Source: Lachnospiraceae bacterium (GTDB lineage Bacteria > Bacillota > Clostridia > Lachnospirales > Lachnospiraceae). From it: DNA of 36,223 bases. Below are positions 7,302 through 36,223 of the stretch, piece by piece. Every line of letters begins with the position of its first letter. Position 1 is the first letter of the stretch. The stretch spans positions 1 to 36,223 of the forward strand of contig JAFUGL010000048.1 of the NCBI GenBank assembly GCA_017469405.1. Reading direction: 5' to 3'. The notes under the pieces are model-generated. The model was not told the DNA's origin. It saw only the letters and a list, made by a program, of their open reading frames with translations, and ran no database searches. Position numbers and translations under genes: made by a program.

Positions 7302-7690
7302 GTCATATCTGCGATGCCTGCCGCTGCCTCACCTTCGCTTCGCTTCGGTTCGGTCGCTTCAGCCATCCTATGATTTTTTTAAGGATTACTGCAAATGCAA
7401 GAGAATCTCCTCTTCGCTTCGAGTCGAGCCGACCATCTCTTGTCTTTCTTTTGTCATATCTGCGATGCCTGCTGCTGCCTCACCTTCGCTCCGCTTCGGT
7501 TCGGTCGCTTCAGCCATCCTATGATGTACTTCGGTTTGTTGCGAATCCAAGAGAATCTCACCTTCGCTCCGCTTCGGTTCGACCATCTCTTGTCTTTCTT
7601 TTGTCATATCTGCGATACCTGCTGCTGCCTCACCTTCGCTTCGCTTCGGTACGGTCGCTTCAGCCATCCTATGATGTCTGCGTATACAAA
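7302..7690. repeat. Two and a half 150-bp tandem repeats
   Basis: GTCATATCTGCGAT begins units at 7302, 7453 and 7603 (spacing 151 and 150). Each unit carries the CTTCGCTTCG(G)-rich core and the segment GTCGCTTCAGCCATCCTATGAT; the last unit is truncated. An inverted copy of GTCATATCTGCGATG ends at 7755, on the last base of the rpsI stop codon, so the whole block is bounded by 15-bp inverted repeats. GC content is clearly higher than in the flanks. Apart from the repeats and the rpsI terminator I see nothing else in this 480-bp gap. Confidence 0.85.
7386..7667 (-). CDS. Possible repeat peptide (PKRSEGE), doubtful
   Basis: A 93-residue reading frame through the tandem repeats. It reads MAEATxPKRSEGEAAAGIADM, TKERQEMVEPKRSEGEILLD, then again MAEATEPKRSEGE. 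Some differences between the units are silent (GGT/GGC, CGA/CGG), but one unit is 151 bases long, which breaks the frame. The ATG has only AGG directly touching it, with no spaced ribosome binding site, and it lies just beyond the rpsI terminator. It may be a small charged protein or simply an open frame across a non-coding repeat; I favour the latter. Confidence 0.2.
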   Translation of the reverse strand: MAEATVPKRSEGEAAAGIADMTKERQEMVEPKRSEGEILLDSQQTEVHHRMAEATEPKRSEGEAAAGIADMTKERQEMVGSTRSEEEILLHLQ

Positions 7691-32034: not shown

Positions 32035-32436
32035 CTACCATATAAATGCAAGTACCTCTCCACCAACATTTTCTTTTCTTGCTTCCTTATCAGTTAATAC
32101 GCCCTTGTTAGTTGAAATAATTGCAACTCCAAGACCGCCAAGAACCTTAGGAAGATTATCCTTTGATGCATATACACGAAGTCCCGGTTTTGAGATTCTC
32201 TTAAGGTCTGTAAGGATCTTTTCGTTTTTGTCTGCACCATACTTAAGTGTAATCTTAATAGTTTTAAAGTTACCCTCTTCTATAACGTCAACTGCCTTTA
32301 CATATCCCTCTTTAAGAAGAATATCCGCAATCGCCAGCTTCATCTTAGATGCCGGTATATCTACTGTATCATGTTTTGCAGTATTTGCATTACGAATTCT
32401 TGTAAGCATATCTGCAATTGGATCGCTCATTGACAT
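32035..32436 (-). CDS. rpsH: 30S ribosomal protein S8
   Basis: A 133-residue central-domain rRNA-binding protein, in some bacteria also the repressor of the spc operon. [15 protein letters not shown] near the start and the C-terminal [18 protein letters not shown] are typical. A second in-frame ATG lies two codons inside; the first, ten bases after GGAGG, is used here. Confidence 0.97.
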
Positions 32437-34218: not shown

Positions 34219-34422
34219 TTAAGCTTTAGCCTTCTGGGCTATAACTGTCTGTATTCTTGCAATATTCTTTCTAACATCCTTGATTCTGCTTGTATTCTCA
34301 AGCTGATTAGTGGCATTCTGGAATCTTAAGTTAAATAATTCCTTCTTAGCAGCTACTAAATCGCTCTGTAACTCATCAAGTGATTTTGCATTTAATTCTT
34401 CTTTATATTCCTTAAGCTTCAC
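34219..34422 (-). CDS. rpmC: 50S ribosomal protein L29
   Basis: A 67-residue helical hairpin protein at the tunnel exit, near the docking site for nascent-chain factors. The start is a GTG (34420-34422), eight bases after AAGGAGG; an ATG further up lies deep in rplP and is not supported. It overlaps the end of rplP by 11 bases, so the two are translationally coupled. [20 protein letters not shown] is the family signature. Confidence 0.95.
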
Positions 34423-34858
34423 TGCTAGTACCTCCTTCTTCAACTTCCAAATCTGCCTTTGATACAATCTTACACTTTACAGGTAACTTGTGTGTTGCAA
34501 GACGAAGAGCCTCCTTTGCTGTATCCTCAGGAACACCTGCGATTTCAAACATAACTCTTCCCGGCTTAACAACTGCTACCCAGTATTCAAGAGATCCTTT
34601 ACCGGAACCCATACGAGTTTCAGCCGGCTTAGCTGTAACAGGCTTGTCTGGGAAAATCTTAATCCAAACCTTACCATTACGCTTTACGTAACGTGTCATA
34701 GCAATTCTGGCTGCCTCTATCTGATTTGACTTGATCCATGCAGGCTCAAGTGCAACTATACCATACTCACCATTAGTGATTTTATTTCCTCTAAGCGCCT
34801 TGCCCTTCATACTTCCTCTGAACTGCTTACGGTGCTTAACTCTTTTAGGCATTAACAT
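34412..34858 (-). CDS. rplP: 50S ribosomal protein L16
   Basis: A 148-residue protein near the A-site tRNA elbow. It begins [15 protein letters not shown], as is usual, and contains [20 protein letters not shown]. Its ATG overlaps the rpsC TAA by one base (TAATG), and it overlaps rpmC by 11 bases. Translation therefore normally depends on ribosomes finishing rpsC, which matters because rpsC has an internal stop. Confidence 0.97.
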
Positions 34859-35094
34859 TATTTATCGCTCCCTTCCTTATTTCCCTTAGTTGGGAGTACT
34901 TCGCCATGGTAAATCCATGTCTTAACACCAACCTTACCATATGTTGTATCTGCTTCAGCAAAACCATAGTCGATATCAGCACGAAGTGTCTGAAGAGGAA
35001 TAGTTCCCTCACTGTAGAACTCAGTTCTTGCCATATCAGCACCACCAAGTCTTCCTGAACATGCAGTCTTGATACCAAGTGCACCGGCATTCAT
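34858..35094 (-). CDS. Ribosomal protein S3, C-terminal part
   Basis: A 78-residue frame beginning [20 protein letters not shown] and containing [20 protein letters not shown], the S3 C-terminal domain. Its first ATG (35092-35094) lies two codons after the TGA, and GAAGAG upstream is a weak ribosome binding candidate, so stop-restart translation is conceivable. The TAA overlaps the rplP start. Confidence 0.6.
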
Positions 35095-35100
35095 AGCTCT

Positions 35101-35523
35101 TCACATGCAAGACTTCATAGCCTTTCTGAAAGAGATACGGTTCTCTAACTGTGCAGCGATGTTTTCTGCAACAAGCTGTGCATCTAAATCAGGCTTCTTA
35201 ATTTCCTTGATTTCGATATTAAGCTTCTTGTCAGTAAGCTTCTGAACGTTTGCCTTAACCTTCTCGATTCCTGCTCCGCCCTTACCGATTACGATACCAG
35301 GCTTAGCTGTATATACAAATACTCTGACTCTATCAGCCTTTCTTTCGATTTCAATCTTAGAAACATTTGCTGAATAAAGCTCTTTCTTTAAAAACTCTCT
35401 GATTTTATAATCTTCAACAAGGTTATTTGAAAATTCGCCATCCTTAGTATCAGCATACCACTTAGAATCCCAATCCTTGATGACGCCGACTCTTAAACCA
35501 TGTGGATTAACCTTCTGTCCCAT
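35101..35523 (-). CDS. rpsC: Ribosomal protein S3, N-terminal and KH part
   Basis: Residues 1-140 up to the TGA. It contains the N-terminal region and the type II KH RNA-binding domain with [13 protein letters not shown] (about residues 84-96), then [15 protein letters not shown]. The break falls in the stretch joining the KH domain to the C-terminal domain, so each piece could in principle fold alone. ATG follows AGGAGG. Confidence 0.75.
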
Positions 35524-35533
35524 TGCTTACCTC

Positions 35534-35920
35534 CTATCTTTCATCAAGCACAATTGTGATGTGACTTGTTCTCTTCTCGATTCTATAAGCTCTACCCTGT
35601 GCTCTTGGTTGAATTCTCTTCATTGTTGGTCCCTTATTTGCATAACACTCAGCAATGTAAAGGTCTTCAGCCTTCATACCATTGTTATTCTCTGCGTTAG
35701 CAATTGCTGACTTTAATAACTTCTCTATAACCTTTGATGCATATCTGTTGTTATAAGCAAGAATACCAAGCGCTGAAGTTACATCCTTACCTCTTATCGC
35801 ATCCAATACGAAACATGCCTTAGTTACTGAAACTCTTGCATATGACACAGTAGCCTTAGGTCTTGTATCTTTATTCTCATTTCTAAGTCTCTTAACTTGA
35901 GATCTATGTCCCTTTGCCAT
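35534..35920 (-). CDS. rplV: 50S ribosomal protein L22
   Basis: A 128-residue protein whose loop lines the exit tunnel. VTKACFVLDAIRGKDVTSAL, AIANAENNNGMKAEDLYIAE and PRAQGRAYRIEKRTSHITIV are typical. It lies 10 bases before rpsC. No erythromycin-type loop deletions or insertions are apparent. Confidence 0.97.
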   Translation of the reverse strand: MAKGHRSQVKRLRNENKDTRPKATVSYARVSVTKACFVLDAIRGKDVTSALGILAYNNRYASKVIEKLLKSAIANAENNNGMKAEDLYIAECYANKGPTMKRIQPRAQGRAYRIEKRTSHITIVLDER

Positions 35921-35940
35921 TTGATGTATCCTCCTTTCGC

Positions 35941-36222
35941 TTAACCTCTCTTACCCTTCTTTTCATCCTTACCATGTCCTCTGTAGGTTCTGGTTGCAAC
36001 AAACTCACCAAGCTTGTGTCCAACCATATCCTCTGTAACATATACAGGAACATGCTTTCTTCCATCATAAACTGCTATTGTATGACCTACAAATGAAGGG
36101 AAAATAGTTGAACGACGTGACCAGGTCTTAATAACCTGCTTGTCATTGGCTGCATTTAATGCATCTATCTTCTTTAATAAATAATCATCTGCAAATGGTC
36201 CTTTTTTTAATGAACGAGCCAT
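35941..36222 (-). CDS. rpsS: 30S ribosomal protein S19
   Basis: A 93-residue head protein. [20 protein letters not shown] at the start and [19 protein letters not shown] identify it. The ATG is at 36220-36222, one base from the window edge, so the gene is complete but its ribosome binding site and the upstream genes (normally rplB) lie outside. Confidence 0.97.
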
Positions 36223-36223
36223 A

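Follow-up and report, generated by a model that had tools for sequence, protein, structure and literature searches.

An in-frame TGA in rpsC of a Lachnospiraceae draft genome, very probably a wrong base in the assembly

The rpsC gene and its in-frame stop

The window, i.e. the whole stretch of 36,223 nucleotides analysed here (positions 1 to 36,223 of the forward strand of contig JAFUGL010000048.1, C103 in our numbering; assembly GCA_017469405.1, Lachnospiraceae bacterium), carries the gene for ribosomal protein S3, rpsC, on its minus strand at 34858..35523. Its S10-type operon place, with rplV, rpsS and rplP as neighbours, and two Pfam domains above their curated cut-offs (KH_2, 76 bits; Ribosomal_S3_C, 122.1 bits) assign it to the S3 family. 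Translation of minus strand 34858-35523 gave a single frame, 221 codons long and closed by TAA, that has no frameshift and one in-frame stop, and a Pfam-model search recovered the same frame (222 codons, one TGA). The frame is thus interrupted in the assembly by a TGA at codon 141 (35101..35103, minus strand, read 35103-35101), and the preliminary description of a full-length, single-frame gene free of frameshifts was correct on these points. It had, however, placed the TGA between the KH domain and the C-terminal domain, which is wrong, as KH_2 covers residues 40-113 and Ribosomal_S3_C residues 122-204, so that codon 141 lies inside the latter at about position 20 of 83. The codons before the TGA (1-140; 35104..35523, minus strand) encode the KH domain and the first part of the C-terminal domain, and those after it (142-221; 34861..35100, minus strand) are still selected as protein. 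In a structure model of low confidence (mean pLDDT 58.6), taken as a hint only, the TGA falls in a predicted helix of residues 129-145. The position inside the C-terminal domain makes this a poor place to split S3.

An ATG shortly after the stop, preceded by a weak GAAGAG site, had been proposed as a restart of translation. The ATG is present as codon 144 (35092..35094, minus strand, read 35094-35092), but it follows GAAGAG at a spacing of 2 nt, which is too short for a good ribosome-binding site. Both Met144 and Arg142 are invariant in the 80 relatives compared below, so the GAAGAG and ATG letters are ordinary coding sequence, and restart at Met144 was rejected because no adaptation beyond these coding letters is visible at the site. 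That S3 is made as two pieces, starting anew at Met144 and assembling in the ribosome, may draw on ciliate mitochondria, where the N-terminal and the C-terminal domain of S3 each have a gene of their own according to an excerpt of PMC2779199. With a stop inside the C-terminal domain and in a predicted helix, and with the restart site just described, we consider such a two-piece S3 extremely unlikely here.

The start of rplP (34412..34858, minus strand) had been reported to overlap the rpsC stop, from which it followed that translation has to reach this point. The overlap holds for the mechanical ORF start at 34858; the conserved start, however, is probably the ATG of MPKRVKHRK at 34852, two codons past the ATG at 34858, so that translational coupling of rpsC and rplP is not forced. 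Elsewhere in the window two tandem repeats were seen, one of 4.2 copies of a 75-bp unit upstream of a sortase gene (1072-1385) and one of 2.5 copies of a 150-bp unit adjoining the rpsI stop (7302-7677). Rfam gave no match above its cut-offs anywhere in the window.

Comparison with related genomes

The nearest relative is the rpsC locus L032 of the metagenome-assembled genome RUG13380 (G061 in our set), which has the same operon and the same 221-codon protein (95% identical; 92.9% DNA identity over rpsC), with a glycine codon at 141 where the window has TGA. Codon differences between the two genes amount to 18 synonymous and 9 non-synonymous before the TGA and to 12 synonymous and 1 non-synonymous after it, the latter indicating that the second half evolved within a working S3. 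As previously suggested, the gene is therefore unlikely to be an old pseudogene, whereas selection on the second half says nothing against an error in the base. The only residue differing from L032 after the TGA is that of codon 145 (35089..35091, minus strand), Asn in the window and Lys (75) or Arg (5) in the 80 relatives. Codons 141 and 145 are each one G-to-T change away from L032, lie 14 bases apart, and have a state found in none of the 80 relatives.

Over 13 operon genes, five residues of the window were seen in no relative, namely rpsC 62, 92, 141 and 145 and rpsH 77; that rpsC holds a cluster of them was recognised only post hoc. The corresponding means of the relatives sum to about 18.7, above the window's five, so the window is not noisy overall, and a stricter odd-residue test picked out rpsH codon 77 but no residue of rpsC; both results were counted against a wrong base at codon 141. 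At rpsH codon 77 (window 32206-32208) the window has Asp and 70 of 70 relatives have Gly, perhaps reflecting another base error in the contig.

The preliminary description had proposed that close relatives and the remainder of the genome be inspected, and the stop was absent from all relatives examined. When the genome of the window and those of 60 relatives, 61 in all, were searched with the 83-residue S3 C-terminal domain, 48 matched, and no stop was found in the match of any of the 47 others, 25 of which belong to the same genus as the window's genome. A search of the genome collection confirmed at least 569 loci in named genomes, of which the best 80 were compared: codon 141 is a sense codon in all 80 (Gly 46, Ser 25, Gln 8, Thr 1), and no in-frame stop was seen in the aligned S3 of these best 80. 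Finally, 351 of 397 genomes drawn from the family matched the full-length S3 model, and among the 150 matches listed only that of the window's own genome has a stop in S3, and the 149 others have none. In the genomes examined, a stop common to related species, as would characterise conserved readthrough, was not found. A scan of viral contigs for the rpsC TGA site gave nothing, although records of this genome may be absent from that scan.

A second look was taken at nine genomes of the family that had shown odd scores or additional matches, alongside G061 and the genome of the window. G318 and G341 have S3 genes truncated by contig ends. G066, with a listed contamination of 6%, has an intact S3 on one contig and S3 pieces with stops on another, so that broken S3 occurs in other drafts too; the pieces lie as two sets, some interrupted by stops, on the single contig C3. 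A longer S3 with apparent extra residues was observed in G104 (C7:38271-39197), where the model matches 1-70 and 25-215 in one 347-codon frame.

The copy seen could also be a young pseudogene, with an intact rpsC in the unassembled part of the genome. Completeness of the genome is 91.5%, leaving room for such a copy, and rpsC holds four of the five unseen residues of the 13 genes. In the assembly itself, as had been proposed for inspection, a Pfam-model search revealed no second rpsC or other S3 match, and a DNA search with 34400-36223 found neither a second copy nor a second allele in the window's genome. Exactly one S3 match was present in each of the 48 matching genomes, and the interrupted gene stands in its usual operon place with rplB on the abutting contig, both of which make a hidden second copy very improbable.

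As a measure of general soundness, 1.37 Mb of the window's genome (19,320 bases masked) was compared with 0.8 Mb of G061. In a loose set (188 of 677 G061 ORFs with a match of at least 55%), ten in-frame stops and one frameshift-like case were flagged. On reading the alignments we took two of the ten to be real, those in rpsC and in an integrase; the other eight come from antisense frames, from the edges of alignments or from weak matches. With the comparison reversed, 187 ORFs gave 4 flagged stops, each read as an edge or a weak match. The strict set (144 ORFs, 44,901 aligned codon positions, median identity 93.75%) gave five flags, read as two antisense, one edge, rpsC and the integrase, and its reverse direction one in 145, read as an edge. 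The integrase-like gene (L173:887-2089, minus strand, contig C50; 401 codons) contains an in-frame TAA, is 98.5% identical to the G061 copy and is probably a mobile-element pseudogene. For a single interrupted core gene over these 44,901 codons, a base error rate of only some 1.6e-4 (range 4e-6 to 9e-4) would suffice, which was counted in favour of a wrong base. A high error rate is excluded by the otherwise clean sequence of the comparison, and this was counted against a wrong base.

Use of TGA in the genome

If the TGA were real and fixed, full-length S3 might still be obtained by decoding of UGA through near-cognate readthrough, a suppressor tRNA or selenocysteine, as would suit the selection on both halves of rpsC. 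UGA is leaky in some bacteria, and a reporter readthrough of 6% in Bacillus subtilis is quoted in an excerpt of PMC7918605. In the stretches of the genome examined, TGA terminates 123 of 803 mechanical ORFs of at least 200 aa, as expected for a normal stop. Among 21 gene stops checked in the window, 13 are TAA, 8 TAG and none TGA, which was counted against a wrong base. Release factor 2 is encoded (510 bits; cut-off 370): as we read locus L132, a leader frame of 25 codons runs from 1461 to the TGA of CTTTGAC (1536-1538) and the body continues in the +1 frame, which is the usual RF2 frameshift arrangement. The lone TGA counted in the RF2 profile search sits slightly upstream, in the other frame. 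Reassignment of UGA was rejected, as TGA is used as a stop and, by our reading of the alignments, no other in-frame TGA besides that of rpsC occurs in the 144 strict ORFs.

No tRNA-Sec scored above the 47-bit cut-off in the 91.5% complete genome, the best match (40.7 bits) being a serine tRNA, and no stable hairpin follows the UGA, since the 67 nt from the TGA, the single stretch tested, fold worse than 198 of 200 shuffles. On these grounds selenocysteine was rejected. Of 22 tRNA matches, anticodons could be assigned to 20; another is a Glu tRNA, probably cut by a contig end, and the last is a tRNA-like element without an anticodon. No UCA anticodon, i.e. no tRNA reading UGA, is among the tRNAs found; those for Ala, Asn, Asp, Ile, Met, Phe and Val are also missing from the set, and a suppressor could hide among these seven. 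With the stop private to one genome, RF2 encoded and TGA a normal stop, with a tRNA-Sec candidate under the cut-off, a poor fold and no further TGA in the strict ORFs, decoding of UGA at codon 141 is nevertheless very unlikely.

The tRNA-like element is a 110-nt RNA outside the window (L280:1501-1610, minus strand, corresponding to C67:34673-34782), with an Rfam tRNA score of 49.9 bits and a fold z-score of -5.2. Its acceptor, D and T stems look perfect, a standard anticodon arm is lacking, and ARAGORN made no call. It lies 138 nt upstream of a same-strand gene whose product matches DUF2828, DUF7788 and, weakly, vWA, an arrangement that recalls that of Y RNAs beside Ro60-like vWA proteins. The Rfam YrlA model did not match the element (12.1 bits; cut-off 69). 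Of 36 relatives searched, two have long matches to the element (98% and 93%), and one more matches it over 21 nt.

Origin of the stop and comparison with known systems

The window's genome is a 2.75 Mb draft in 138 contigs with 1.36% contamination. The best named relatives, among the top 80 of the at least 569 loci, belong to Lachnospiraceae and Eubacterium, and several of their titles mention ruminants; this kinship together with the fragmentation suggests a metagenome assembly. The final 34 bases of the contig (36190..36223) recur identically as the final 34 bases of C94, the contig with rplB, which abuts the window's contig by this overlap, unjoined. The operon is thus broken at a contig end 1.1 kb from the TGA. 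Overlaps of 27, 34, 35, 66 and 141 bases were found among the fetched contig ends (fully masked pairs excluded), and such short overlaps may be explained by gaps in coverage. Thin read support near the contig end may then have caused a wrong base. As 83 of the 220 sense codons of rpsC are one-base neighbours of a stop, a single wrong base readily yields a stop of this kind.

The assembly does contain the TGA, no relative examined shares it, TGA is used as a stop in this genome, and both flanks of the codon look selected as one protein. The preliminary description had left the choice between a sequence error and readthrough or splitting of an essential protein. From the TGA being private to this draft, its function as a stop, the lack of visible suppressor or selenocysteine machinery in an incomplete tRNA set, surroundings that show no adaptation to restart or recoding, and its place inside a domain, the error is favoured and readthrough or splitting disfavoured: the TGA is, with high probability, a wrong consensus base in a draft metagenome-type assembly and not recoding. 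The organism would then very probably have a sense codon at 141 and make one ordinary S3, and reads would be expected to show that codon. That a living bacterium has a fixed UGA in its sole rpsC and obtains enough S3 by efficient UGA decoding or two-piece assembly appears decidedly improbable.

The consensus might instead have caught a real nonsense allele carried by some cells, of a dying or recently mutated lineage, while most cells have an intact rpsC. Against this stands that alleles abolishing an essential gene are expected at very low frequency and should seldom reach a consensus; nor was a second-allele contig present in this genome. On the other side, most in-frame stops of bacteria were judged to last only about as long as population polymorphisms in the excerpts of Belinky et al. 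(2021; PMC7918605). Overall, we regard a nonsense allele as quite improbable.

If real, the stop would be a rare case of an interrupted gene for an essential and abundant bacterial ribosomal protein. As it stands, the case calls for caution, since a single wrong base in a draft can mimic recoding, and it illustrates cheap checks that separate the two: uniqueness among relatives, stop usage, tRNAs, position in the domain and position relative to the contig end. No paper joining rpsC, ribosomal protein S3 and a premature stop codon was found in the literature searched. According to the same excerpts of Belinky et al., bacterial genes contain many in-frame stops, a considerable part of the raw hits is expected to be artefactual, and stops common to at least two species were retained in order to limit artefacts (PMC7918605). 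The rpsC stop resembles those stops in being single in an otherwise selected frame, and differs from them in occurring in one genome only. Systems with selenocysteine or reassigned UGA likewise have an in-frame UGA, whereas the window's genome has no tRNA-Sec over the cut-off and uses TGA as a stop. The split rps3 of ciliate mitochondria, as far as the excerpt of PMC2779199 describes it, would be similar if the stop were real, in that S3 comes from two coding pieces, and indicates that a two-piece S3 is possible in principle; there, however, the separate genes divide the protein by domain into N- and C-terminal parts, whereas the stop in the window lies inside the C-terminal domain.
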